The notes under the pieces were generated by a model. It saw only the letters and a program-made list of their open reading frames with translations. It was not told the DNA's origin and ran no database searches. This document shows positions 10,807 through 62,459 of a DNA stretch of 64,000 bases, one piece after another. Origin of the DNA: Dryococelus australis. Taxonomy: Eukaryota; Arthropoda; Insecta; Phasmatodea; Phasmatidae. The position numbers and the translations under genes were made by a program. The stretch's first letter is position 1, and every line of letters starts with the position of its first letter. The stretch is from contig CM057000.1 of the NCBI GenBank assembly GCA_029891345.1, forward strand, positions 128,191,338 through 128,255,337. The letters are read 5' to 3'.

Positions 10807-13423
10807 CGTTTACATAAACCTACAGAAATTTCTAACAGTGTAAAGTTATCATTTCCACTTGTCTGGTAACTTTATACATGCGTTGGTTTCAAGATAATCG
10901 GAAAAATTATTATAAAAATAATAAAAATTTGCACATTCTTACAAATATTTTGTAACTATCTGTGGCCGCTGGGTTAAAGCATCAGATGAATTGTACCTGT
11001 AATACGCGGAAGTGGTAAATTACCGACACTATACTTGTTAGTCTTTAGATTACTGTTTAATGTGTCTGCGATACAGGATATATGACGTTTCTCTCCTATA
11101 TCCGTATGACATAATTGCTTCAGCCCCAGGACACGGGAAACCTCGTACAATACAGGATAATTGGCAACTGTAATTATAATCCATTACAATTACATACAAT
11201 TACACTATAATTTTTTTTTTGTATTTTTACACGATAAATCCTTGTAAACTCAGTTGCCAAGAAAATCATTTGCGAAACTACAAAGAAATTTCTTGTTAAA
11301 TCTGCAAAACATTTATTTGTAATATGACAAATTATAGCCTTGTATTATAACTGTCATTATTGGGAAGTGCGCATAAAATTACTTTTATTCCTTCTCGAAA
11401 ACAAAGGAGGTAAATTATTAACAAAGATAAATTTCAAAAAATTTCCAAAACATCATTTACGAAAGAAAAAATGAAAACTACACCCTGTCAGCACATGGAC
11501 TAGAACCCACATTCGCAATATTAGTCTGCACCTTTAACCACAAGACAAACTTGACTTACGAGTTCTACGCATTTTTAAAATGTATGTATATCTGCAAGTT
11601 CAAACAAAGTAGTATTGAATTTATTCGGTTAATATGAATAGGTACATTTATTTCATTTTAAGAGTTCTTATGTCGAGTTAAGAGATTTGGGCCATTCTTA
11701 ACAACGAGGTATTGAGGGCCGATTTAAGAGTTCTGTGTAGCCACGAAATATTAACAATTAATTAATCATACGGTCACGTTTTATTGAAATTGTCGTTATT
11801 ATGATTATTTGAGTTGTTTACGGTGTTTTGCGTTGTTCAGAAATGCAAAACATTTCTTTTTCCACGCAGCTACATTTAACATAATCCATAGTTTTTGCAC
11901 AAACAGCTATATATTGTTTTACGTTCTTCAGTGTCCGCCATTTTGCTGAAGCTTGTGGAAGCGATCATTATAGTACACACATTTCTTGAGGCATTTTACA
12001 TACACGGGCCTTGTAGTTATACAAACGAGTAGCTTTACAAGAAAAATGTTTCTACTGTTATAATAATTTGTAAAATTGCAAGGAATTTCTCAATAAAAAT
12101 TACAATATTTTTTACACCATACACCGCAATGCCCACCATATCGATCACACCGATATACTGATATTTCCGACGATATCGACCATTCCAAATAAATCTGGCC
12201 ATACCGACCATAACGACATACGTGCTATACTGACATACCAACCATAGTGAAGTACTGACATACCTCAAACGTAACTCGATACATACTTCAGAGAGATCTC
12301 CAATGTAGATCGGTTAACTCTTAAAGACCTCAGACAGACATTATACTTCAATCATTTCCCTCTTAGTGAAGGCCACTTGCTCATAGAACGTGTACTAGAA
12401 ACCAACTTCCTAGGAGATACCCTAGAGATTTTAAAACAAATATTATAAAAAATAAAATAAATGTTTTCACCTAATAATATTACACAAATACAAAAATTAA
12501 GACGTCATCTGCATACCTTCAATAAAATCAGTTTTCAATTTCAGCGATTCTTGCAATGTGTGAGCAATAGCTAATTATCCAATTGTGTGCAGTAATTTTC
12601 CTTAATGGGGGCGAGTCCCTGCCATCTTGGTTTTGTCCATTTTTCGTTATAACTTATATTTAAGTTGGTTTAACGAAATTCATCGTACCACACATCATGC
12701 TTCTCAAACTTTATTAATTTTTACCTAGTAAGAGCTGGGAAGAAGTAGACGATTTTTCCTTGCTGGCGACTATAGCAGATAAACTAGCTGATGTAGTCAA
12801 GTAACGTCGACTTCAGAAAATGTATAAAGGATTGTTCTGGGTTCTGTAAAATTCAATACAAATCTATAATCTAGGTTTTTGCGAAAATTACAAACATTCA
12901 AGATGCCAGGGGCCGATCCCCTTAAGTACATCGCCGATTAGAGAAAATTCGTTAATGGCAAAGCTATTCACAGAAATTTTTAAAGGGGCGAAATGTCTGT
13001 CAGTAAACTTCGCTTTGGTGTTCAGAAAATGTGTAGCTGGTGTTCTTGCCATCTTAGATCATCGTCAGGCAACGTATCGCGTTAACCTTATCAAAGAGCT
13101 GCGTGAGAACATCGTTAAAATTACACTGTAAAATTGTTTCCGGTTAAACTTCTTAGACTGTAACGGAAGTTTTTAACCTATATACAATATGGAAATAACA
13201 CCACACATCAAGATGCAAATATAAGAATGAATAGCGTCGTTACTATAGAAATTTGGGAACTTCCCTACGTGCACACAAGTAGCACACAGGGCTTTCAAAA
13301 GTGCTCATTTAATCGTGAACACCCTATAATTATGCATGAATCCGCGTTACCGCGCACTTTAAGCCAATTGCATTGACCGTAGTCCACTAGTGTTCTTTGA
13401 ACATTATAACCAGTGTTTAGCAG
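10807..13423. other. Non-coding stretch; degenerate repeats at 12120-12270
   Basis: No gene recognised. At 12120-12270 the phrases ACCGATAT, CGACCAT and ACTGACATACC recur in a degenerate, roughly tandem manner. A minus-strand tRNA-like piece at 11481-11552 is listed separately. Confidence 0.5.
11481..11552 (-). mobile_element. tRNA-like SINE head fragment
   Basis: On the minus strand the sequence TTGTGGTTAAAGGTGCAGAC resembles a tRNA 5' end with an A box. About 25 bases later GGTTCTAGTCC is a near-consensus B box (one base off). No acceptor stem or anticodon arm can be folded convincingly, so a real tRNA gene is unlikely. It could be a third SINE family or an old tRNA pseudogene. Confidence 0.5.
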
Positions 13424-13806
13424 TATAGTCAATTCACGGCCACTTACAACATTTCTGAAGCCTTGCTGAAGTTCTACTTCCAGGATATTCCTTCCATCGT
13501 GCCAAAAAAAAAAAAAAACTTATCGGAGTGTACAAAACTACACCAAAGGGACAGCGCACTGCATTCGTGCGCACTCAGTGTAATAATATTTTTCAAAATA
13601 ACATTTGCTTACTAAACATTACCAAGAAACATATTTTCTTCAAGTTTTATTCGTGTTAGATGTAATGATATATTATAATTTATGGACAAAATGTCAGTTT
13701 AAGTTCGGTATGACCAAAAATAAGGTACTTTCGTGTTAACGCAAATATAAAACGCTTGTGATACATGACGTATTTAAGAGACACCTAACCACGTCATATA
13801 TGAGGT
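13424..13806 (+). mobile_element. MITE family B, 3'-truncated copy
   Basis: It starts with TATAGTCAATTCACGG and continues with the same landmarks as the complete copy at 44168-44598: CTGAAGCC, GTTCTACTTCCAGG, ACACCAAAGGGACA-like, GCACTCAGTGTAAT, then ATAAAACGCTTGTGAT and CACGTCATA. The terminal inverted repeat at the right end is missing. There is a 15-base A tract near 13504. Confidence 0.8.
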
Positions 13807-19074: not shown

Positions 19075-19254
19075 ATTATCCTTTAACCACCTTTTAAAAT
19101 AAATATTGCCTTTTAAGCAATAAACACAGTGTGTTAGTTCGACGGACTAGAAAGTTAACGTCTAAGGCAACAATAAAATAAATTCGCTGACTATTATTCT
19201 AAATGAAAGGGCTTTCAAAAAGTGCTCACATTAACGTGAGTAGCCTATAGCCAC
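19075..19254 (+). mobile_element. MITE family D fragment (A-type 3' terminus)
   Basis: It matches 31797-31966 in the same orientation, with landmarks TATCCTTTAACCACCTTTTA, AATAAATATTGCC and AAACACAGTGTGT. It ends in TTTCAAAAAGTGCTCAC and CGTGAGTAGCCTATAG, which resembles the 3' terminal repeat of MITE family A. The interior differs from family A. No left terminal repeat was found. Confidence 0.7.
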
Positions 19255-26011: not shown

Positions 26012-26240
26012 TGACGTGTGAATAATGTTTGCAAGGTTTTAATTGCCCATTACCCACTGGGCTAATGGAACATGTGCAGTAATATTTACGGGGTTATCTT
26101 GCAATTTGCGCAATTGAAGGCTGTTGACGTGTGAATAATGTTGCAAGGTTTTAATTGCCCATTACCCACTGGGCTAATGGAACATGTACAGTAATATTTA
26201 CGGGGTTATCTTGCAATTTGCGCAATTGAAGGCTGTTGAC
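26012..26240. repeat. Tandem duplication, 113 bp unit x 2
   Basis: Units start at 26012 and 26125 with TGACGTGTGAATAATG and are nearly identical (one small indel and one substitution by eye). Each unit ends AATTGAAGGCTGT. The second unit runs directly into the terminal repeat of the neighbouring MITE, which starts GGCTGTTGACGATAAAG. Confidence 0.95.
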
Positions 26241-26666
26241 GATAAAGAGAGCACGTTCGTAATCTACCTTAGAAAAAAGTCACTGCTTCTACCTGCGTAT
26301 ATATTTTACCGGGCGCCCCGAGTGACATGCGTCCAGTTAAGTTGGTAACGATGAATGGGGAAGTAGTTTCGTGCCCCAACGTCAAATAAAAAGTTTCACG
26401 TAACTATTTCTGCTAACTTAATTTATTTCTTTCGCTTTCTGATTTTTTTTTTAATGCATTGAAGTGTAAAAATGAGCAGATTTGTAGAATATTTACTTTT
26501 TTTTAAAATATATAATTTCGCAGTTTCACTTGACCGACGCACGAATAAAGTAATGAGGCCCCCGACAATATTAATTTTACATAAGGCGGAATAATACACA
26601 ATGTGCATACAAGTATATATTAGGCAGGGCTTTCTAAAGCGCTCATTTTATCGTGAATAGCGTATA
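26231..26666 (-). mobile_element. MITE family A, full length, minus strand
   Basis: Read on the minus strand it starts near 26666 with CTATTCACGATAAAATGAGC and shows the family A landmarks in order: TACTTGTATGCACATTGTGTA, TCATTACTTTATTCGTGCGT, GGTCAAGTGAAACTG, CATCGTTACCAACTTAACTGG and CATGTCACTCGGGGCGCCC. It ends at the 26235 side with TGCTCTCTTTATCGTCAACAG. Its A-rich internal stretch matches copies at 43217 and 59104. No transposase is encoded. Confidence 0.85.
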
Positions 26667-29058: not shown

Positions 29059-30291
29059 TTATTGGACATATGCACGAAGCTCACAAATTCCTCCATGCAA
29101 GTGCTTGCATGCACTTATCGAAGCCGTTTGTTCATCTCTCTGCTTCTTTTCGCGCTGATACTTCTGTTTATGTTGCTGTTGTGGGCAATAGGCTCTCAGG
29201 TGCACCGGCCGTCCATATGACCAACATTTCCTCCGTTTGTGTGTGGTGCGGTGAAGCTCTGTCTCACGGACCCTGGGAGCGATGTCCCTCAAATCCAGAT
29301 GTAACTCCTTCAGTATCTTCCTTATTGTGTCTTCGTCTTTTTCCAGCATTAGTGTGCGTCTGGACAACGGGGTACGGGCTCCTGTCTTGCTGACACAACC
29401 TCCAGTGCTCGTGCCAGGGCATCCTCCATGCTGTGGGCTGCAGCCAAGAGTACAGCTTGCCGTACCTCTGTTTCGGCGATGACATCGATGAAGAAGACGA
29501 CTGCGATTATGTAGCGCGCCTTCTCGGGGCACCCCTCCAGAGATAGGTGAGAGAGCCACATGATGTCTTGCCGTAGTTCCTGCAGTGGCTGTCCTGGTCG
29601 CTGCGTGCGATATCGCAGTTGGGCATTGTGGGTATGTCGAAGGTATCGGTCCCCGAAACGTAACTCCAAGGAAAACACCATTTTGGTATACTCTAGTCGA
29701 TGTCTCTCTGGCAGTGATTGTAGTATGCTCAGTGCGGGGCCTCTCTTTACTGCGGCGAGGTAGTAAGCCCGCTGTTCGGCTGACCAGCCGTTCATGGTGG
29801 CGACTATTTCAAACTGGTGTTGGCACTGCCGCCAAAAAGTCTGGCCATCATCATAAGGGACGGGCTTAATGGATACCCCCTTCCCCCACTCCTGGCTGCG
29901 CGCCACCAATGCTGCAGAGCTGTTGACTATCCTCCGAGGTCGCTGTGTTGGGTACGACTTGCGCTGCTCCCACTCTTTTTTTTGTCGGCGCCGGTGTGGT
30001 AGTTGTGGATCTTCGTTGCTGAATATATTCCTCCGTCTGCTTCTCTATTGCACTTATCTTCTGTTTCACTTCATTCTCAACGTTGTCCATTCTTTCACAG
30101 ACACTGTCCACTACTTCAGTTACACTGTCAATTTTCTTATCCATACAGTCAATTCTTGTATTTACTAACTCGTTAGTGCCTTTAAATTTCCTATCTACAC
30201 GATCTATTTTCGTGTCTACATTTTTATTCATAGTGTCTATTTTTCTGTCCACATTCGCAAATACGGTGCCTATTTTCTTATCTTCTAACAC
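29059..30291 (-). pseudogene. gag polyprotein of the Ty3/gypsy element, frameshifted
   Basis: Gag coats the element RNA. On the minus strand a coiled-coil region (30291-29866) with repeated 7-residue units such as VDTKIDRVDRK and IDCMDKKIDSV is followed by a capsid-like region (29909-29349) containing FWRQCQHQFEIVATMNGW, YLAAVKRGPALSIL and LRFGDRYLR. A nucleocapsid segment with CWSYGRPVHLRAYC (in 29559-29059) follows. That last motif is a CCHC zinc knuckle whose second cysteine is a tyrosine. Three frames are needed to read the whole protein, so at least two frameshifts exist. The GTG at 30291 is only the edge of the open segment; more heptad repeats (NVNSQIT-like) lie upstream to about 30360. 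Confidence 0.8.
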
Positions 30292-30292
30292 A

Positions 30293-30360
30293 CATTAGTT
30301 ACCTGGCTATTTACATTAGTTATCTAGCTATTTACATTAGTTATCTGGCTATTTACATTG
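30293..30360 (-). repeat. 21 bp tandem repeat coding 7-residue units at the gag N-terminal side
   Basis: The unit ATTTACATTAGTTATCTGGCT occurs about three times. In the minus-strand sense it codes NVNSQIT-like heptads, one with a stop. The 21-base period fits growth of the coiled coil by whole heptads. Confidence 0.8.
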
Positions 30361-31665: not shown

Positions 31666-31796
31666 GGCCGCGGTGACTAACTGGTTATCCTGCTCACCTC
31701 CAACCAATGCGAACCGGGTTAAATTCCCGGCTGGGTCACTCCTGGGGTTTCGCATGTGGGAATCGTTACTGGTTACTTTTTCCTTTCAGCCGTTTC
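31666..31796 (+). mobile_element. SINE family 1, 3'-truncated copy
   Basis: Head GCCGCGGTGACTAACTGGTTATC (A-box region), B box GGTTAAATTCC (one base off consensus), then TGGGTCACTCCTGG and GTGGGAATCGTTACTGG. The body is cut off after about 130 bp, where MITE family D sequence begins. Confidence 0.85.
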
Positions 31797-31966
31797 TTAT
31801 CCTTTAACCACCTTTTAAAATAAATATTGCCATGTATGTAATAAACACAGTGTGTGTATTTCACCAGGCTTTAAAATTAGCGCCTAAGGCTACAATTATT
31901 TATTGACTGTTATTTGAAATGAGAGGGATTTCAAAAGTGCTTACTTTCCCGTGAATAGCCTATAGT
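31797..31966 (+). mobile_element. MITE family D fragment, second copy
   Basis: It matches 19075-19254 in order and orientation and ends with TTTCAAAAGTGCTTACTTTC and CGTGAATAGCCTATAG. This 3' end is close to the family A terminal repeat. Its left side abuts the truncated SINE. Confidence 0.75.
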
Positions 31967-43216: not shown

Positions 43217-43642
43217 TAGGCCATTCACGGTCAAATGAGCACTTTTTAATTCCCCAGCTTAAGATCTACTTGTACGCAGGTTGTGTATTATTCTGCCGTA
43301 TGTGAGATTAACATTGTCTCGGATCTCATCACTTTATTGATGCGACGGTCAAGTGAAACTGTGAAACTATTAGAAAAGTAAATATTTTACAATTTTCATT
43401 TTTACACTTGGGTACATTAAAAAAAAAAAAAAAGATAAAGGGAAATAAATAATTTAAATTGTCAGAAATGGTTACCTAACACTTTTTATTCGACATTAAG
43501 CTACGGAACTACTTCCCATCCATCGTTACCAACTTTACTAGGCGCATGTCACTCAGAGCGCCCGTCAAAACATGCAGGTAGGAGCAGTGACATTTTCTAA
43601 AGTCGATTTCAAAAGTGTTCACTTTGTCGTGAACGGTCTATA
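43217..43642 (+). mobile_element. MITE family A, full length
   Basis: Starts TATAGGCCATTCACGGTCAAATG and ends with AAAGTGTTCACTTTGTCGTG then AACGGTCTATA. Interior landmarks are TCTACTTGTACGCAGG, TTATTGATGCGACGGTCAAG, CCATCGTTACCAACTTTACT and CATGTCACTCAGAGCGCCCG. No protein is coded. Confidence 0.9.
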
Positions 43643-43696: not shown

Positions 43697-44144
43697 TATA
43701 GTCTATTCGCAGTTTGTTCACACTTTTTGAATCAAACCTTTGAAAAATTCCCCCATGTATGATATGTTTAATTATTTCCTAAATATGCCATATTACAAGC
43801 GTTTTATTCATCTGTTAACATGAAAGTATTATATTTATCATTAAATTGGAGTTTTAGATCTATTTTATTAGTAAATGATAATAATTCATGCATAATAAAT
43901 ATGAAAAAAAAAGCAGCGAGAAAACATGTGTGTTGGTAACACCTAGTGAGAAATAGTTCTCATTCAAAATATCATTACAAGTGAGTGCGCACGAATTCGG
44001 TGCGTTGTCTTTCAGTGTAATTTTCTAGACTTGGTTAAACTTAGTTTGCACACGAGGCGGAGGAATATCATGGAAGTAGAAGTTAAGCAGGGCTTCAGAA
44101 AACAAATAATTTATGTCGATCCAACAGTAACCGAGGCTATAAAT
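43697..44144 (-). mobile_element. MITE family B, left member of a head-to-head pair
   Basis: It is the reverse complement of the element at 44168-44598, with diverged sequence. Outer end TATAGTCTATTCGCAG at 43697; inner end near 44144 has a damaged terminus (AGTAACCG, then GGCTATA, lacking about four bases). Landmarks such as CACGAGGCGGAGGAATATC and GCAGGGCTTC mirror those of the right member. Confidence 0.85.
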
Positions 44145-44167: not shown

Positions 44168-44598
44168 TGTAATCCATTCACGGTTACTTCAGTCTTTTAT
44201 GAAGCCCTGCTAATGTTCTACTTCCAGGGTATTACTCCGCCTCGCGCAAACAAAGCTTAACAAGTCTGGAAAATTACACCGGAGGGACAAGAACCACATT
44301 CATGGGCACTCAGTTGTAATTATATTTTGTATAAGGACTGTTTCTCACTAGATGTTACCAACATACCTATTTTCTCCCTGTTTTGTTATTCAAATTATTT
44401 ATCACTGAAGCATTATGACCTTTAGATAAGATATTAATAACGTTTCAATTTAACAGGTAAAACAGTAACATTTATGAACACAAGTATAAAACGCTTGTGA
44501 TAGAGGGCGTATTTAGAGAATAACTAAACACGTCATACATGGGGAGATTTTTCAAAGGTTTGATTCAGAAAGGCCGAATAAACCGTGAATGGACTATA
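44168..44598 (+). mobile_element. MITE family B, right member of a head-to-head pair, complete
   Basis: Starts TAATCCATTCACGGTTACTTC and ends AACCGTGAATGGACTATAG, giving inverted termini of about 16 bp. Interior landmarks are GAAGCCCTGCTAATG, GTTCTACTTCCAGGGTATT, TTACACCGGAGGGACAAG and ATAAAACGCTTGTGATAG. The pair as a whole forms a 900 bp inverted repeat with a gap of only about 24 bp between members. Confidence 0.88.
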
Positions 44599-45403: not shown

Positions 45404-45770
45404 TGCACATTGTTTATTTTACATATGGTGTATGAGTACACATTGTCAGGGGCCTGATTACTTCATTCATGCGTCGGAGTGAAACTGTTTAATTATTATA
45501 AAAGTAAACATTTTCACGATTTGCTTATTCTTTCCCGTATATGCATGAATAAACAGAAATCAAAACTAATAGTTTCAAACATCCGACGATGTTTACTTCG
45601 CGCTTTTATTTCAACGTTAAGACATGGAACTACTTTACTTCCATCGTTACCAACTTTACTGGGCGCATGCCAAGTCAGTGTGGCCGTTAAAGTAAGTGCA
45701 TGTAGCAGCAGTGATATGTTTCGAAGGTTCGCTTCAGAAGTGCACCATTAACCGTGAACAGGCGATACCA
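45404..45770 (+). mobile_element. MITE family A, 5'-truncated copy
   Basis: Family A interior (TTCATTCATGCGTCGGAGTG, CCATCGTTACCAACTTTACT, GGGCGCATGCCAAGTCAGTG) and the 3' terminus CCGTGAACAGGCGATA are present. The 5' terminal repeat is missing exactly where the CACT-terminated element ends, which suggests that the latter inserted into or replaced it. Confidence 0.8.
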
Positions 45771-53204: not shown

Positions 53205-53607
53205 GCGGAGTGCCTACAAGCATTCGTCCATCAATTGTTACCAACTTCACTGTGGGCATGTCACTCAGTGCGCTCGTTAAAATAATTGACGTTAGTAGCA
53301 GTGACTTTTTTCTTAGGTTGATTTTAAAAGTGCTCACTTTACCGTGAACAGGCTTTACTTGTAATTACCAACAAGCATATTTTATCTCTGATTTCATTGC
53401 ATTAATTATAAATGAAATAATACGATTTATTCATAAAACATAGCGAAAAGTTCAATTTAACCACAAATAAGATACTTTTAAGTTACTGGTAGTACAAAAA
53501 CGCATGTGTTACACAGCATATTTCGGATAGAACAAAACACGCAATTCATGTCGTGGTTTTTCAACAGTTTGATCCAAAAATGGCAAAGATACCGCGAATA
53601 GACTATA
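53205..53607 (+). mobile_element. Composite: family A 3' end joined to family B 3' end
   Basis: 53205-53356 is the 3' part of MITE A (CATGTCACTCAGTGCGCTCG to TTTACCGTGAACAGG). 53357-53607 is the 3' part of MITE B, ending ACCGCGAATAGACTATA. The same junction (A end, then TTTACTTG, then TACCAAC) is seen at 55600-55630, so the two shared an ancestor carrying A inside B. Confidence 0.75.
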
Positions 53608-53646
53608 CTACATGTTCTTCATTGCGGCGGGGATTTTTCCCTCCAC

Positions 53647-54040
53647 TGCTTCGCGACAATTCGTTCGCCAGGATATTCAGAGGACACTCACTCAACTTGA
53701 GGAGAGGCGTCACTCGGCAGGTCGTGCAGCCACTCAGGACCAAATCCAGTTCCCATTATAGCCTGTTCACGGTAAAGTGAGCACGCTTTAAGGCCCTCCC
53801 AACAGGCGCTAACCAATAATAAATATATCTTATTGCAGCCCGAGGCATCAAATTTTGAGGGTGGGGAAATGTATACACTGTGTTTATTGGTCACATTGCA
53901 ATGTTTATATTAAAAATCAGCAGGAATATGGGATTTGGATGAAAGGAAAAATTTATAAGGGCGTTAAAAAGTTCTCACTTTCCTGTGAACAGCCTATACA
54001 AGTGCTAACAACACAAATCTTTCAAATTAATTGAAACGAC
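53647..54040 (+). repeat. Unknown repeat split by a MITE (filled site)
   Basis: 53647-53756 and 53999-54040 together align with 56448-56590, which lacks the MITE. Landmarks are CGTTCGCCAGGATATTCAGA, GGAGAGGCGTCAC and AATCTTTCAAATTAATTGA. The repeat itself is unidentified. Confidence 0.9.
53759..53996. mobile_element. Short MITE with family A termini, 238 bp
   Basis: Starts TAGCCTGTTCACGGTAAAGTG and ends TCACTTTCCTGTGAACAGCC then TA. It is flanked by TA at 53757-53758 and 53997-53998. Its interior is unlike the standard family A interior, so it is a separate subfamily that shares the ends. The empty site at 56555-56556 has a single TA, which confirms a 2 bp TA duplication. Confidence 0.92.
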
Positions 54041-54130
54041 CTTCCCTGCTAGTGGTTCACCGGGTCGACCTGAGCCTTCTCGAGGGGCGTGTCCCATCCT
54101 ACACTCTCTGTGTCCAACACCAACTCACAG

Positions 54131-54405
54131 TGGGCCCGCGGTGGCTGAGCGGTTAGACCACTCGCGTCCCACCAAGGCGATCCGGTTCAATCCTCAGCCT
54201 GGTCACTCCGGATTTTCGCTAATTGGAATCGTGCTAGACGATACCGTTGGTCGCCGGGTTTTCTCCGGGATCTGCCCCCCCCCCCCCCTCCAAACCCTGC
54301 TGCATTCCATCGCTGCTTCATTCTTACCAAATTTCACCCTCATCAACTCTCGAGACCTCGTTGTTAAGAGCCACCGAAATCTCTCAACTCAACCAACTCA
54401 CAATA
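54131..54405 (+). mobile_element. SINE family 1, complete copy
   Basis: Head GCCCGCGGTGGCTGAGCGGT then TAGACCACTCG (A box), B box GGTTCAATCC, then GGTCACTCCGGATTTTCG, AATTGGAATCGTGCTAGACG, a C tract at about 54275-54287 and the CTCTCAACTCAACCAACTCA tail. It gives the clearest view of head-body-tail order in the window. Confidence 0.92.
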
Positions 54406-54441
54406 TGGACAGAACGGTTAAAGTAGCGAACAATGCGTATA

Positions 54442-54776
54442 TAGGCTGTTCACGGTAAAGTGCGCACTTTTGAAAGCCCTAATTAAGATCTACTTGTACG
54501 CATGTTGTATATACTTGTGCTTTGCGTAAAATTAACATTGCCACGGGCCTCGTCACTTTATTCATGCGTCGGCCAAGTGGAACTGTACAATCATTATGAA
54601 AGATTACCCGACAGTTTTTATTCGACGTTAAGGTATGTAACTACTTTCCCTCCACCGTTACCAACTTTACTAGGGGCTTGCCACTCGGCGCACGCGTTAA
54701 AATAAATGCGGGTAGGAGCAGTTACATTTTCCTAAGGTTGGTTTCAAAAGTGCTCACTTTATCATGAACAGTTTTT
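54442..54776 (+). mobile_element. MITE family A, internally shortened
   Basis: Starts TAGGCTGTTCACGGTAAAGTG after TA at 54440-54441 and carries the family interior (TCTACTTGTACGCATG, TTATTCATGCGTCGGCCAAG, CCGTTACCAACTTTACTAGG). Compared with the copy at 43217 it lacks the A-rich middle of about 80 bp. The right terminus is damaged (CATGAACAGTTTTTTAA). Confidence 0.88.
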
Positions 54777-54896
54777 TAAACGTCCAACCTGCCTCTCGGA
54801 GGCCGACAATGGACCCCGACTCAAACTCATCCAGCTGGACAAGCCTTTGTCAAACGCTACAATGCTACAGATGCCTTATTCAGTGCCTTGCACTTG

Positions 54897-55137
54897 GGAA
54901 TGATGGTTGAACACATATGTCCCCTTGTGGTACATCCAAACAAGCAAGACACATTAAACGCAAGTAGGACACATATCTGACTAAGGTGATACTGTGTTGC
55001 AACTGTCGTGCTCGCGTGATGGTTGAACACATATGTCCCCTTGTGGTACATCCAAACAAGCAAGACACAGTACACGCAAGTAGGACACATATCTGACTAA
55101 GGTGATACTGTGTTGCAACTGTCGTTGTGCTCGCGTG
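54897..55137. repeat. Tandem duplication, 116 bp unit x 2
   Basis: Units starting TGATGGTTGAACACATATGT at 54901 and 55017 differ at a few positions. A minus-strand frame crosses both but encodes nothing recognisable. Confidence 0.92.
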
Positions 55138-55206
55138 ATTCGTTCATGATCTCAAATTTTTATTTGCAAAATACTGTATTTAAATGATAATTTTTTCTTA
55201 TCTGTT

Positions 55207-55610
55207 TTTTTTTTCACGGTAAAGTGAGCACTTTTTAAAGGCCTCCTTAAGGTCTACTTGTACGCCCTTTGTATATTCTTCCGCCTTGTGTAAAATTAAC
55301 ACTGGCATGGGCCCCATAACTTTATTCATGCGTCGGTCAGGTGAAACTGTGAAATTATTTCAAAATGAAATATTTTACAAATCTGGTCATTTTTATACTT
55401 CGACGCTCAACAAAACAGAAAAACCGAAATAAAAATTTAAGTTTTTACAAATGGGTAACCTTACACTATTTATTCGACTTTAATAAATGGAACTACTTTC
55501 CATCAATCGTTACGGACGCACTGAGCATGTCAAAATACATAACGTTAGTAGTAGTGACTTTTTTCTTAGGTTGATTTTTAATGTGTTCACTTTACCGTGA
55601 ACATGTTTTA
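55207..55610 (+). mobile_element. MITE family A, inside a family B remnant
   Basis: Starts in a T tract with TTCACGGTAAAGTGAGCAC and ends CACTTTACCGTGAACATG. Interior landmarks are TCTACTTGTACGCCC, TTATTCATGCGTCGGTCAGG and CCATCAATCGTTACGG. Family B sequence follows (55611-55767) and probably also precedes it (about 55135-55206). Confidence 0.82.
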
Positions 55611-55767
55611 CTTGGAACTACCAACACGCCTAATCTATCTCTGTTTTCATTGTATTAATTATAAATGAAATTATAGTATGTATTCGTAAAACATAACGAA
55701 ACGGCCAATCTAACCAAAAATAAGATACTTTTAAGTTACTGGTAGTACAAAAACTCATGTGTTACAC
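55611..55767 (+). mobile_element. MITE family B remnant, 3' middle part
   Basis: CTACCAACACGCCTAATCTA to AAAACTCATGTGTTACAC matches 53364-53516 in the other composite and, more loosely, 44359-44500 in the complete B copy. It ends abruptly before the B terminus. Confidence 0.75.
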
Positions 55768-55789
55768 TTCCCCCTACCCCTCCCACCAT

Positions 55790-56100
55790 CCACTGTGTCG
55801 TGGGCTGAACGAGTCACCCCAGCAACATATTCAGCGCAGAAGCGGGGGTTGCGGCTTTGTTAAACGAGGGCCCGGCAATACAGCGGCGAAGGCGCTGATT
55901 TAGGCGAGTGCGAAGCTCGCAGCGGGGCCAGTCGTCTGCGAGCCGCCAAGATGACGTCATCCAGACGACGCGCTGGTGCGTGTGGCCAGAGTCTTAGACG
56001 GTCCACGAGAGAGAGAGGTGTGCCATGATCGCAGCTATTGGGCGTGATTGGACGCAGCCCTCGGCATCTGGAATACCAAGATGAACAAGTCCCAAGGATT
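55790..56100. other. GC- and CpG-rich island with a CRE-like palindrome
   Basis: This segment is much richer in G+C than its neighbours and has many CpG dinucleotides. TGACGTCA at 55952-55959 is the cAMP-response-element consensus. No open frame of note and no similarity to the window's repeats was noticed. It might be a promoter, a conserved element or an unknown transposon part. Confidence 0.4.
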
Positions 56101-56447
56101 AAATGGGAAAATCATTATCAGGAGATTAATTAATAAGCTATATCTTTTATGAAGGAATTAATAGTAAAGATAAATAGCTGCCCCCCGTTTTGCATATCGG
56201 TTTAATTGTAAAAGGGTTATACTTTGGTGAGTACAACTTCGGCTGTATAAAGTGAGATAATCGTAAATAGTCGTAATTATCACTTTGCCTTTCCTAATAG
56301 AGTGATACCAATTTACTGTGAGCCAGCTCAGACCTAGCAATAACAATAATTAGTCTAACTGAATACGAACAGTATTGTGTTGGAATATTGAAGGGGAGAC
56401 GTAGCGTTATACGTGACTAAAGAAGTTAGTTATTGCGACCAGAATAA
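56101..56447. other. Unannotated stretch
   Basis: AT-rich; no gene or repeat recognised. Confidence 0.5.
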
Positions 56448-56590
56448 CTGCTTCGCAACAAGTCGTTCGCCAGGATATTCAGAGGACACTCGACATGAGG
56501 AGAGGCGTCACTTGGCGGGTCGTACAAATATTGCGGACCAAACCCAACGCCCATTACAAGTGTTAACAACGCCAATCTTTCAAATTAATT
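56448..56590 (+). repeat. Unknown repeat, empty site for the 238 bp MITE
   Basis: It aligns with 53647-53756 plus 53999-54040. At the insertion point it reads CCCATTACAAGTG, with a single TA at 56555-56556. Confidence 0.9.
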
Positions 56591-56717
56591 GATTTTTCCA
56601 CTGAATATTATTTTCCTAATACTGTAAGGAATTTTGTGAAAACTACCAACGTAGTCAATGAACTCTGACCAAGTGTTTGTCTTATTCCTGGGACAAACTT
56701 AACCATCTGTATTTTAA

Positions 56718-57193: not shown

Positions 57194-59101
57194 TCAAAAC
57201 TTGACGTGTTTTTTTTTTTTTTACGGAACTGTGATCAACTTGTTTTGTACTCAAAATTACAGCTACTTCAAAAAAAAATTGATCCAGCTAACGTTGCACC
57301 TTGAGAAAGGCCAAAATCAAATCGAGGTGTCGATCAGTGATCGATCAAGCGCAACAGGACAACGGCAGTCTCCTGTAATCGACTCACGTTCCCCGCGTGC
57401 CGTAAAAAGCGCCGAAAGCCACGTTGTAAACCCTTCATGATTGCTCTTCCTGTTCCTCGCTAGCAAGTCTTCAGCTCCTGCGATCTCCGATCTCCGCTTT
57501 TGTCATTCGATGCGCTACCTATCTCCCCCTCCCCCCTCCAAAATATGCAAGGAAACTACACTGAGATAGTTGGAGCTGCGCGTCCAAGGTCGAGAAGCGA
57601 GGGAGCGATACGGGCGACACTAACAGGCACTTATAGCGCCTCATCGCTCCTACGCGCAAAGCATGCAGCGTTTCCGTCGTGACGCTGTACTGTGCAATTC
57701 ATATCTGTAACAGTGGGGTTTTATTATACGCGATAGGGACATAGATTATTTTTATTTATTTTTATTTTTTTTTCAATCTTTTCTGACATAAAGTCGTATT
57801 CGCAGAACATTTATTTACCGAGATACGCGTATCCGCGCAAACAACTATTCCACAAAAAACGTGCAGGTCCATATAACTCTTACGGCAGCTTCCCACCCAC
57901 CATCTTGGATTTATGGAATTTTTGCCATACTCTGGAAATGCAATTTTGTATCATGTTTGGAACGACAGAGCACATAGTATTGCCTAGTTCATTGTCCGAA
58001 GTCAGTATTTTTTAATTACTGCTGATATCGTCGCCTTTGTAATCGTTCGCAAAAAATAATCTCGCATTTCCCCTCGACAGTCAGCAGCTAAAAATTAACA
58101 GATGTAGCGAAGTTGTGGCAGTTCGATAAAGTTTGGGAAGCTGTTATTTAGGATATGTCGTACGGGAAATTTCAAGACACCTTCTGAAATAGAAGCTTTG
58201 GCGAAAAAGCGATAAGTCCAAGATAGTGGGTGGGATATCCGCCTTAAGGGCGTCGCCTGGCTGGAGGATATCGCGTGTCTCAGGCCTAGAAGCGAGGGAG
58301 CTCTAAGGGCGACCTGAGGGCACGTATTGGATATCTGGTAGTCTTTACGCACACTGCACTGATGTACCGTGCAAATCTTCCTTCCCCCAACCCCCCCCCC
58401 CCCCCCACACACACACACACACACACTCGTCTTGTAGGACTTGTGAGCCTATCATATTTTGGTGTGATAGAAAAAAAAAGTGCGATTCATGTCAATATCG
58501 TATGTTAAATAAACTGTACTGTATGTTTCATACCTAAAGACTATTGTGTAACACGATCAGCCATTTCTTTACATTTAATAAACGCTCATTAGAGAAGAAA
58601 TAGAAAACTAAAACTCCCGTTCAGACGTGGCAGAATTCTTCAATTCTATTCGTACGCAGAAGCTGGTCAGAAGTATCAAACAGTTCTCAAATGACAACTA
58701 TACGACTGAACCTCTACGCTGTGTTTGGACGCGTGGTCAGACAGTGCCCTTAAGCCGTGGTATACAATACCGTGTTATTCATATCACTTTTTCAGATTCT
58801 ATGTTACACTTTCTTTTTTCAATGTCGTTGACAACATACCTATTTTTAATTTTAGATAAAGAATTGGTTACTGTATTTAAATCTTTTGCGAATTCTATAA
58901 TAATTTCTATTTCAGACCTTAGTGTATGCTCCTTTCTTTTTAACCTTTTTTCGGGATAGTAACTAGGAACTACTTAAGTGTTCATTGAGTGCAGGGTAAT
59001 TATATTGTATGTTCGGAAACTCAGTGAAACTGTAGACATAGTTTCTTTTCCTTGAACAAATAGAAAAGCCCTCTACAATTGTACACGGAAACGTATTTTT
59101 A
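57194..59101. other. Unassigned stretch with a small dispersed motif and a microsatellite
   Basis: GAGAAGCGAGGGAGCGATAC at about 57592 and TAGAAGCGAGGGAGCTCTAA at about 58287 are parts of two related GC-rich segments about 695 bp apart. A C tract followed by (AC)n lies at about 58391-58426. Frames up to 110 codons (58627-58959) have no known domain. Confidence 0.45.
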
Positions 59102-59103
59102 TA

Positions 59104-59525
59104 TAGGTTATTCACGGTAAAATGAGCACTTTTGAAAGCTCTGCTTAGTATCTACTTGTACGAACGTTGTGTATTCCTCCGCTTTATGTAAAATTAACAT
59201 TGTCATGAGCCTAATCACTTAATTCATGCGTCGGTCAAGTGAAACTGTGAAATTATTAGAAAAATAAATATTTTACTAATCTACTCATTTTTGCACTTCG
59301 ACGCCTTAAAAAAAAACAGAAAGCGAACCAAATAATTTAAATTATCAGAAATTGTTACCTAACCCTTTTTATTCAACGTTAAGATAAAGAACTACTTCCC
59401 ATCGTTACCAACTTTACTGGCCACATGTCACTCAGTGACCCTCGTTAAGATATATGCAGGTAGGGGCAGTGACTTTATTCCTAGGTTGATTTCAAAAGTG
59501 CTAACTTTATTGTGAACAACCTTTA
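59104..59525 (+). mobile_element. MITE family A, full length
   Basis: Starts TAGGTTATTCACGGTAAAATG after TA at 59102-59103. It ends AAAAGTGCTAACTTTATTGTG then AACAACCTTTA. Interior landmarks match 43217-43642, including TTCATGCGTCGGTCAAGTG and CATCGTTACCAACTTTACTG. Confidence 0.9.
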
Positions 59526-59737
59526 TCAACTAATTGTGTTCAAAGTTGCAGCGTTCAACGCCTGCAGAGCGAGGCTTTGTGATCATGCGTGTAGGACAAG
59601 TTGCATAGGCGCAGGCGCGCGACACTAAACTATTACATACGCAGCGTCGCGCGCCCGTAAGACCTATGCAACTTGTCCTACACGTATCCTTGTTCTGCAG
59701 GAGTTGTAAGCCGCAAGATTTGAACACAATTAGTTGA
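59526..59737. mobile_element. Palindromic MITE family F, about 212 bp
   Basis: The outer termini TCAACTAATTGTGTTCAAA and TTTGAACACAATTAGTTGA are perfect inverted repeats of 19 bp. Inner arms GTGTAGGACAAGTTGCATAG and CTATGCAACTTGTCCTACAC pair perfectly. It abuts the 3' end of the family A copy. Only one copy is seen in this window. Confidence 0.88.
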
Positions 59738-60558
59738 CAAAAAAATACGTTTCCGAATATAAGTACATAGAAGTTTTGCGTTACTATTGGTTCAAATAAA
59801 CTATATCTGGAGTTGGGGCTCTGAGTTTTCTAACATTCTGTATTTTACTCTGTAAATTGTACAAACACTTAATGCCACCCATTTTACAGAGAATATGTTT
59901 CCAGTTGTGATAAATTTCGTTTCCAGAGACAACATTGCCTGTCTCGTTTCCTCCCCCCCCCCCTTTTTTTTTGTGGTTGGTGATACATGAAGTATATCCT
60001 ATTTAAAATTTTGTGAAAATAAATAATATCTGTAACTTATATAAGAACATTGCTAACTGCAATTTTTATATATGAGTAAGATAGTGCCAGGCAAATAAAT
60101 TGGGAAACATGTGTATTAGGTTACCTACAATTTTCTACTCTGTTCTGGCCATTACAGATCCCACTCAAAAACAAAGAAAATTTATTTATTTATCACTTGG
60201 GAAAAGCCTGTGATGGCATGGTTTTTCGAAAATCTAATAAATACTTCTGTAATGTTTCTGTTGAAGAGGTGGACAGCTCTATTACATCTAAATGGAAAAC
60301 CCAATAATCGCCAGTGTTCTCTTCGAAGAATCGTTGGTATCCTATGTCTAATGAAGTTTTGCTACTTAGCGTAAATGACTCATCAGACACAAAGAGAAAT
60401 AATTATACTGCCAGTAGTCAGCTAGTAGGCTTTCTGGCGCCCTGTGTGTAGGCAGCCACACACTACGACATTTACAAATTTATTGACGGTACTATGTAAC
60501 AGCAAAGAGTATAATAAAAAGAGTTGTCTTTTTATTATTTATGACGCTTTAATGTAAA
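59738..60558. other. Unannotated stretch
   Basis: A C-tract/T-tract lies at about 59949-59970. A minus-strand frame of 65 codons (60390-60193) has no known domain. Confidence 0.45.
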
Positions 60559-61152: not shown

Positions 61153-61723
61153 TTACGATCGGCAATTTTCCGATGGAGAATTGTTCTCTAGATTATATTT
61201 AAAACTGCGAATGTATACATTGTGGTTATTTATTACGGTCTGTAATTCATTGATCAACGAATTTTTGAAATATGGGGCAGTGTTGGAATGCAAGGAAAGT
61301 TGATCGGCATCATAAATGAAGTAAATTTGTAAAAATTGCGGACTTTGGCCTGACGATGGGCGTAAACTGCCAATGAGATGGTATATCTGCCCTTCTATCT
61401 TAAAGGTACTCATAAAGTGGTTTCTCGTATTTCTTTTGCGCCGAATGACGTTGATCGTATACTATTCAAAAAATGGGTAGATAATGGATGACTGCCTGCC
61501 TAAAGACTTTTTATTGTTTGTGGGGGTCCTAAATTTCGGGAAGAACAAATGTTCCCGCATCACAGCACATGCCATTGGATTCATCACTCCAATTTTTTGC
61601 GTAACATTTAGAGAATGTTATATTAATTTGCCCAATTTGCATATTTCTCTGCTGAGCGTAGTCAAAATTTGGATCATAATTGAAAGCCAATCTATTACCA
61701 TGGGCTAAAATTCGATTATACAA
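61153..61723 (-). pseudogene. Helitron protein, Helitron_like_N-type region, decayed
   Basis: The segment 61723-61529 contains LAFNYDPNFDY, QIGQINITFSKCYAKNWSDE and NGMCCDAGTFVLPEI, which is the usual cysteine-bearing region before the conserved N-terminal domain. The segment 61413-61153 contains FKIEGQIYHLIGSLRP, PQFLQIYFIYD and the typical spacing of that domain. These come from RepHel, the rolling-circle transposition protein of about 1,400 or more residues. The two segments are in different frames with stops between them, and the nuclease and helicase parts are missing. Confidence 0.75.
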
Positions 61724-61732
61724 TGTACACTA

Positions 61733-62291
61733 TCCACCAAAAAGTAATTGGGCACCCATGAGGATAGATAATTCAGTACGTCACTTGACTTGTGTTCCAC
61801 GGCCTCCGGCGTAGAACCGCTGGTGTTTGTTCGTGGTAACATGAACACAGAGGCCTATTGTATCATTCTGGATAACGAAATACTCCCAACATTGCGGCGT
61901 ATTTTCGGAATGGACCCGTGTTACTTCCAGGATGACAATGCCAGGTGCCATGTTGCAAGGGCTACTATGCAGTGGTATGCCGACAACAATGTTGGCCGAT
62001 TGGACTGGCCCGCCCAGAGCGCCGACCTCAACCCCATAGAACATCTTTGGGACGAATTGGATCGCCGGGCGAGGGCTCGTCCGGCTCGGCCAAAATCCAT
62101 TGCTCAACTCATGGAATGGTTGCAAGAGGAATGGCGACGAATCCCCGTGGATGTCCTGCAAACACTCGTAGAGAGCATGCCAGACAGGGCGGCTGCTGTT
62201 ATAGCCGCAAGAGGTGGCCCTACGAGATTCTAACGGGGTGACAACCACCGAGGAAACATTGTGGACAGGTGCCCAATTACTTTTTGGTAGA
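61733..62291 (+). mobile_element. Tc1-like element, internally deleted, 559 bp
   Basis: The left terminus TCCACCAAAAAGTAATTGGG then CACC is matched by GGTGCCCAATTACTTTTTGG then TAGA on the right, giving inverted repeats of about 24 bp with one mismatch. TA flanks both sides (61731-61732 and 62292-62293). The element lacks about two thirds of the usual 1.6 kb; only the 3' coding part is kept. Because the termini and the frame are clean, the insertion is younger than the Helitron around it. Confidence 0.93.
61790..62233 (+). CDS. Tc1-like transposase, C-terminal fragment with intact frame
   Basis: The open frame keeps the last 140 or so residues of a DDE transposase of about 340 residues. It includes YFQDDNARCHVARATMQWY with the second catalytic aspartate, then WPAQSADLNPIEHLWDELDR with the final acidic residue, and ends with a stop at 62231-62233. 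The N-terminal DNA-binding domain and the first aspartate are lost in the internal deletion, so it cannot work alone. The ATG at 61790 falls near the deletion join and is probably not a natural start. It could be mobilised by a complete relative elsewhere. Confidence 0.85.
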   Translation: MCSTASGVEPLVFVRGNMNTEAYCIILDNEILPTLRRIFGMDPCYFQDDNARCHVARATMQWYADNNVGRLDWPAQSADLNPIEHLWDELDRRARARPARPKSIAQLMEWLQEEWRRIPVDVLQTLVESMPDRAAAVIAARGGPTRF

Positions 62292-62293
62292 TA

Positions 62294-62459
62294 ATGTAGA
62301 TGTGGATGCACGTTGTCTCTGCGTGGTGAGATGCTGGGAGCGTTCGGTGCTAGGTTCCCTAGCGCGAGTCTGTGAGGTTGTTATATTTTGGCTGGCAAGC
62401 CGCGGCGAGCGTTCCGCGATAGACGCTCTAATTCGACGTATTTTAGCCGTCCTTGCCAC
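62294..62459 (-). pseudogene. Helitron N-terminal basic segment (upstream of the Tc1 insertion)
   Basis: The translation ARTAKIRRIRASIAERS then RLASQNITTSQTRAREPS and ERSQHLTTQRQRAS is rich in Arg, Ser and Thr and resembles the repetitive basic N-terminus of insect Helitron proteins. It ends exactly at the Tc1 insertion, and the Helitron reading continues on the other side at 61723 after a frameshift and a stop. It is short and repetitive, so the family call depends on context. Confidence 0.5.

Follow-up and report, generated by a model that had tools for sequence, protein, structure and literature searches.

A 238-bp MITE with a TA target duplication and its paralogous empty site within one 64-kb window

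The locus

The window, by which we mean the whole 64-kb stretch of DNA analysed, holds a 238-bp inverted-repeat element, here called B, in one of two similar copies of a short sequence. The second copy lies downstream without the element, and a further pair of similar segments lies in the same region. The features of these pairs are:

53759..53996, strand +: element B, a 238-bp MITE, delimited by a 240-bp gap against 56447-56592 and by its genomic copies
53759..53797, strand +: left terminal inverted repeat of B, about 39 bp; 31/38 bases match the right end, 39/39 in the family consensus
53958..53996, strand -: right terminal inverted repeat of B, from the same end match and consensus
53757..53758, no strand: left copy of the TA target duplication; one TA in the empty copy
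53997..53998, no strand: right copy of the TA target duplication; one TA in the empty copy
53645..53758, strand +: left part of the filled flank; 93/110 aligned bases shared with 56447-56556, beside one 4-base gap
53999..54034, strand +: right part of the filled flank; 33/36 bases identical to 56557-56592
56447..56592, strand +: empty target copy, with a single TA at 56555-56556
53263..53514, strand +: duplicated segment that spans the right end of MITE A and continues into the flank; 86% ungapped to 55516-55767
55516..55767, strand +: second copy of that segment, across the right end of MITE D; 86% ungapped to 53263-53514

Results

The filled and empty copies differ by a single 240-bp insertion, which consists of the 238-bp element and one TA. 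The first-pass annotation had proposed this element at 53759-53996 and a second copy reading through one TA, and both are confirmed, the former by gap placements and inverted ends, the latter by the junction alignment and the gap test. The repeat bounds it gave, 53647-54040 and 56448-56590, were right to within a few bases and are refined here to 53645-54034 and 56447-56592. By BLAST the left flanks of the two copies are 81.6% identical over 114 columns (E 8e-26) and the right flanks 92% over 38 columns (E 5e-9). The 240-bp gap that was to be expected from the alignment was found, and similarity picks up directly after 53998, so that the counter-case of a delayed resumption did not arise. With B removed, the flanks align through the junction, and the sole other gap is of 4 bases, at 53685-53688. 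A plain local alignment with very cheap gap extension split the gap of B into pieces. In the gap placement test a single 240-bp gap was tried at every position and scored over 101 bases of the empty site. Three placements, 53757-53996, 53758-53997 and 53759-53998, are tied as the best at 83/101, and the next best scores 82. Since the three differ by the duplicated TA alone, B is 238 bp long and flanked by a TA duplication.

A search of the window with the joined flanks of B finds the uninserted relative at E 3.6e-42. As inverted repeats, the ends of B agree in 31/38 bases. With up to 3 mismatches allowed, a 21-base end pattern occurs 5 times in the window and never in 100 shuffles. The fold of B as single-stranded DNA has z = -2.4 relative to 200 shuffled sequences, and 5 of these reach an equally good fold. 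The longest open stretch is 61 codons in B and 50 in MITE E. B has defined ends, a 2-base TA duplication, empty sites and a family of relatives. Termini of TTCACGG had been proposed for this family. The family is real; its terminus is TAGGCTGTTCACGG (TAGCC... in B), and TTCACGG starts 7 bases inside.

How many members of the family does the window contain? The scan for ends used the inner 30 bases, with the terminal bases left out, at up to 9 mismatches. It gave 17 family ends, while 20 shuffled windows gave 0.1 per window at 9 mismatches and none below. Two weak ends, at 44177 (10 mismatches) and 49344 (11), had no TA at the expected place and are not among the 17. TA stands at the expected flank in 14 of the 17, the misses being one end each of C, D and G. 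With a TA frequency of 8.4% the binomial probability is about 5e-13 if ends are taken as independent; with A and D counted once the figures are 13/16 and, under the same assumption, about 5e-12. Eleven copies, A to K, account for the 17 ends. The interiors fall into two classes: a short one (B, with I and K as partial relatives) and a long one of about 420 bp (C to G, with A and H partial). Window copies differ by roughly 18-31%. The copies other than B, and the empty arm opposite E, are:

53227..53355, strand +: MITE A, right part only, read from the end scan and comparison as a duplicate of D's insertion
54442..54775, strand +: MITE C, long subfamily (about 420 bp), internally shortened, right end degenerate
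55206..55608, strand +: MITE D, long subfamily, left end merging into a T tract; diverged empty relatives near 13.6, 43.95 and 44.35 kb
59104..59523, strand +: MITE E, long subfamily, TA on both sides, within one inverted-repeat arm; empty arm at 59643-59836
59643..59836, strand -: empty arm, matching the flanks of MITE E through the insertion point at 72% over 209 columns (E 2.4e-25)
43217..43640, strand +: MITE F, long subfamily, TA on both sides
26229..26664, strand -: MITE G, long subfamily, TA on one side
45440..45765, strand +: MITE H, left end unrecognised
31800..31962, strand -: MITE I, left part of a short-type relative; right end not found, followed by sequence SINE-like by eye
19076..19247, strand -: MITE K, left part of a short-type relative; right end not found
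13270..13326, strand -: MITE J, left end only, about 57 bp, followed by another repeat

When the joined flanks of the six two-ended copies were searched in the window, uninserted relatives appeared for B, for E (2.4e-25) and, in diverged form, for D (8.4e-6), and none for C, F and G. For E the top-scoring gap position (36/37) falls 1-2 bases to the left of those consistent with TA (35/37). Near the junction the relatives of D match in 18, 19 and 21 out of 28 bases, and for one of them another placement scores equally well. The empty sites of E and D are thus weaker support than that of B. The target of MITE D/A is a dispersed repeat of about 240 bp, seen at 53364-53607, 43697-43939, 44360-44598 and 13617-13802 and also in locus L103 on contig C14. 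The inverted repeat around E, at 58992-59852, is imperfect and looks like another, older foldback-type element.

Is the association with TA a property of the family as a whole? To this end the host genome of 3.415 Gb was searched. With B as query there were 3,174 first-look candidates; the 40 scored comprise B itself and 39 others, and all 39 were fetched. These 39 are the closest to B among those scored and not a random sample, and they are 89-92% identical to B, 30 of them matching over element positions 1-238. Their consensus is 238 bp long with 39 perfect inverted bases at each end, and they average about 5% from it. Of the 39, 35 have TA next to the left end, 34 next to the right end and 31 next to both, and 8 lack it on one or both sides. 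A direct repeat of 2 bases flanks 32 of the 39 (TA in 31 of these); repeats of 3, 4, 5, 6 or 8 bases flank none, and one of 7 bases flanks a single copy. With one mismatch allowed, a 3-base duplication appears in 5/39 and a 4-base or 8-base one in none. TA makes up 8.5% of the dinucleotides in the distal flanks of these copies. Farther flank positions show mild base preferences, for example T at -5 in 20/39 and A at +5 in 19/39.

A count of exact ends is free of selection by closeness to B. The 26-base end TAGGCTGTTCACGGTAAAGTGAGCAC occurs 16,888 times in the genome, preceded by TA in 14,938 cases (88.5%) and by other bases in 1,950; the reversed-pattern controls gave none. The expectation that most genomic ends are TA-flanked is therefore borne out by both the exact ends and the close copies. 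The list of TA-flanked places opens with 44 on contig C1. Single hits account for 38 of these, which were fetched and examined; another four belong to loci L060 and L061, and the other two form a pair separated by 242 bp. In 35 of the 38 a partner end was called (7 mismatches or fewer), lying at 207-245 bp in 32 of these 35 and having TA on its outer side in 26 of the 35. The nearest class is short for 29 of the 38, K for 6 and long for 3. The first 100 places listed include three inward pairs about 240 bp apart, from which perhaps 3-6% of ends are exact. The family may then hold of the order of 1e5 elements, a rough inference. MITEs generally are under 600 bp and non-coding, with inverted ends. 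The present family is likewise short and non-coding, has inverted ends and occurs in many copies of defined length.

Which element supplied the transposase? A DDE_3 profile search of the genome gave 14,198 candidates; 150 were scored, and 30 loci were scanned for family ends. Clear ends lie near 8 of the 30, and a ninth locus, L111, has a single match at 9/28 mismatches. Six of the eight (L109, L116, L121, L123, L128 and L129) have a complete or almost complete 238-bp MITE at a shared position inside a larger multi-copy DDE_3 sequence, whose copies are about 87-93% alike. Because it sits within such a sequence, the MITE is read in these loci as a passenger that multiplied with its host repeat. 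The other two are L118, where two family ends 1.5 kb apart enclose a transposase gene, and L119, where a relative of that gene lies next to a partial long MITE. L118 was rejected as the autonomous parent, for its gene sequence is shared with L119, L124, L126, L133 and others. From this sequence comparison the gene is most simply seen as belonging to an independent Tc1 family that inserted into a long MITE, a reading that does not account for about 140 bp from the gene block to the second MITE part. A DDE_1 search gave 8,242 candidates, of which 150 were scored.

Two loci with exact ends facing each other at a distance, L060 (2.8 kb) and L061 (4.4 kb), were also rejected. Near the first end of L060 a short and a long MITE form a composite (L060:192-811), fused within their shared inverted end, and a further, separate MITE part stands by the far end; by eye, the open frames of L060 are not transposase-like. 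L061 begins with an ordinary 236-bp copy. Nor is MITE J the end of a longer autonomous element: about 57 bp is family sequence, and most of the 39 other scored matches are a different repeat that starts there. The window has a Tc1-like remnant of its own at 61723-62301, apparently internally shortened, with DDE_3 at E 1.9e-7 in a 153-aa open frame, resemblance to the Sleeping Beauty transposase (E 5.4e-24) and 34-bp inverted ends (91%). These ends differ from those of the MITE, and the remnant was rejected as parent. No autonomous element or transposase with the family ends was found among the 30 DDE_3 loci (of the 14,198 candidates) and in L060 and L061. The exact end patterns had no match in viral contigs or prokaryote genomes, nor the B region in phages, nor MITE E in plasmids; such a genome is not expected there.

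Discussion

What event produced the filled and empty copies? The comparison within the window and the genome counts both support the reading first proposed for this locus, a MITE insertion with TA duplication and a paralogous empty site. We hold it nearly certain that a MITE inserted at a TA in one member of a local duplication, duplicating the TA, while the other member and a third, partial copy stayed uninserted. The inverted ends of B are about 39 bp long and it lacks a long reading frame, which makes movement in trans the most likely course. A non-coding DNA transposon would have been cut and pasted into the TA of one duplicated copy, presumably mobilised by a TA-targeting transposase of Tc1/mariner type.

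In a window so rich in repeats, it is worth asking whether two unrelated repeats could have given the gap by chance or through the alignment; 9 of 300 random joins gave some join-spanning match. Judged by one match each, 7 of these 9 are joins matching their own flank (one in a tandem repeat), and the other two are weak (E 0.004 and 0.65). The join of B matches at the far lower E value given above, the gap falls on inverted ends, and the genome-wide ends, with TA in 14,938 of 16,888, refute such an effect, whose probability we regard as negligible. The direction of the event is a separate matter. The flank search of the genome yielded three candidate places, all scored: the empty copy, the filled copy (in two pieces) and a partial relative on contig C14; such a search may miss diverged or common sequence, and a missing match does not prove rarity. 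The C14 relative, aligned across the junction over 26 bases on the left and 33 on the right, has no element and a single TA. As this third copy is also empty, insertion is likelier than loss, and the empty state is likely ancestral unless there were two precise losses. Precise excision or deletion of an element once carried by 56447-56592 is accordingly most improbable, the more so as 56555-56556 has no extra bases, even though excision does occur in cut-and-paste elements and, as A and D show, at least one MITE was in place when the local block was duplicated. Insertion into an empty TA is the reading we keep.

The flank of B had been taken as a repeat. Its second copy is real; the pair looks like a local duplication and not like a dispersed repeat. 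Since the segments at 53263-53514 and 55516-55767 lie upstream in the same order and orientation, they and the B-flank pair are read as one local duplication. The duplicated segment crosses a MITE end, and MITEs A and D are therefore read as one insertion carried by the duplication. Identity is 84.8% for the MITE part of A and D, 87.3% for their flank, and 84.5% and 91.7% for the two B-flank parts. These values are compatible with one duplication that came after the A/D insertion and before that of B.

To which superfamily does the family belong? The target duplication of piggyBac is TTAA and that of hAT is 8 bp. PIF/Harbinger is given a 3-bp duplication in the available part of PMC2213677, while Tc1/mariner elements are described, in that of PMC6875036, as having inverted ends and being flanked by a TA duplication. 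MuTAnT, a Mutator-like group, also has TA flanks, and the accessible text of PMC4486113 places its insertions in TA microsatellites averaging nine TA repeats at the empty site, whereas the empty site of B is a single TA. The family shows neither the 3-bp, TTAA or 8-bp duplications nor insertion into TA microsatellites; its flanks agree over 2 bases in 32/39 close copies and over 3, 4 or 8 in none. An origin in one of these other superfamilies by way of a TA-like duplication is thus very unlikely, though no transposase is known for the family and MuTAnT is a case of TA flanks outside Tc1/mariner (PMC4486113, same text). The TA target duplication that marks Tc1/mariner is present at the empty sites, in the close copies and at the exact ends. 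Given that the loci read yielded no autonomous element or transposase carrying the family ends, the assignment is drawn from this footprint, by which the family is most likely Tc1/mariner-like and non-autonomous. The divergence among copies suggests that it is old and probably no longer moves. We consider it unlikely, though worth stating, that its several interior types (238 bp, K-type relatives and about 420 bp), at a roughly inferred 1e5 copies, were spread by a TA-targeting transposase of an undescribed lineage, since extinct here, with the passengers left behind.

The family is a further case of a well-known kind of MITE. As far as the available text of PMC4877112 and PMC6875036 goes, the Bari-related MITEs of Drosophila and the Incomer-derived MITEs, both of Tc1/mariner, are similarly short and non-coding, with inverted ends and many copies, and they share the TA duplication of the parent superfamily and more than one length class with common ends. 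In contrast to them, no parent element was found here, and the end sequences are absent from the literature searched; the family may be catalogued elsewhere, for instance in a repeat database. The use of an uninserted paralogue to reveal the duplication and the element ends does not differ in principle from the RESite method, judging from the part of PMC4486113 available, except that here the filled and empty copies lie 2.8 kb apart in an apparent local duplication. The result is real and well supported, the family is ordinary in kind and of low surprise, and the general view of transposition is unchanged. What is useful for annotating this genome is the exact ends and target site of a very abundant repeat family. 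It is also of value that an empty-site argument made from one window stood when checked against 16,888 genomic ends.

Other sequences in the window

Several other sequences were noticed beside the family. A SINE-like sequence that resembles a tRNA by eye (GGTGGCTGAGCGGTTAGACC...) occurs at 54139-54418, 31671-31763 and similar stretches. Related sequence recurs at several points of the window, and neither ARAGORN with the bacterial code nor Rfam at its gathering score makes a call there. On strand - at 29059-30294 there are overlapping open frames, with no Pfam match in the two frames, out of three, that were scanned; one has a zinc-knuckle-like CWSYGRPVHLRAYC motif and is presumably gag-like. 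Between MITEs C and D, at 54901-55139, lies a 116-bp tandem duplication that looks recent (95% matches).
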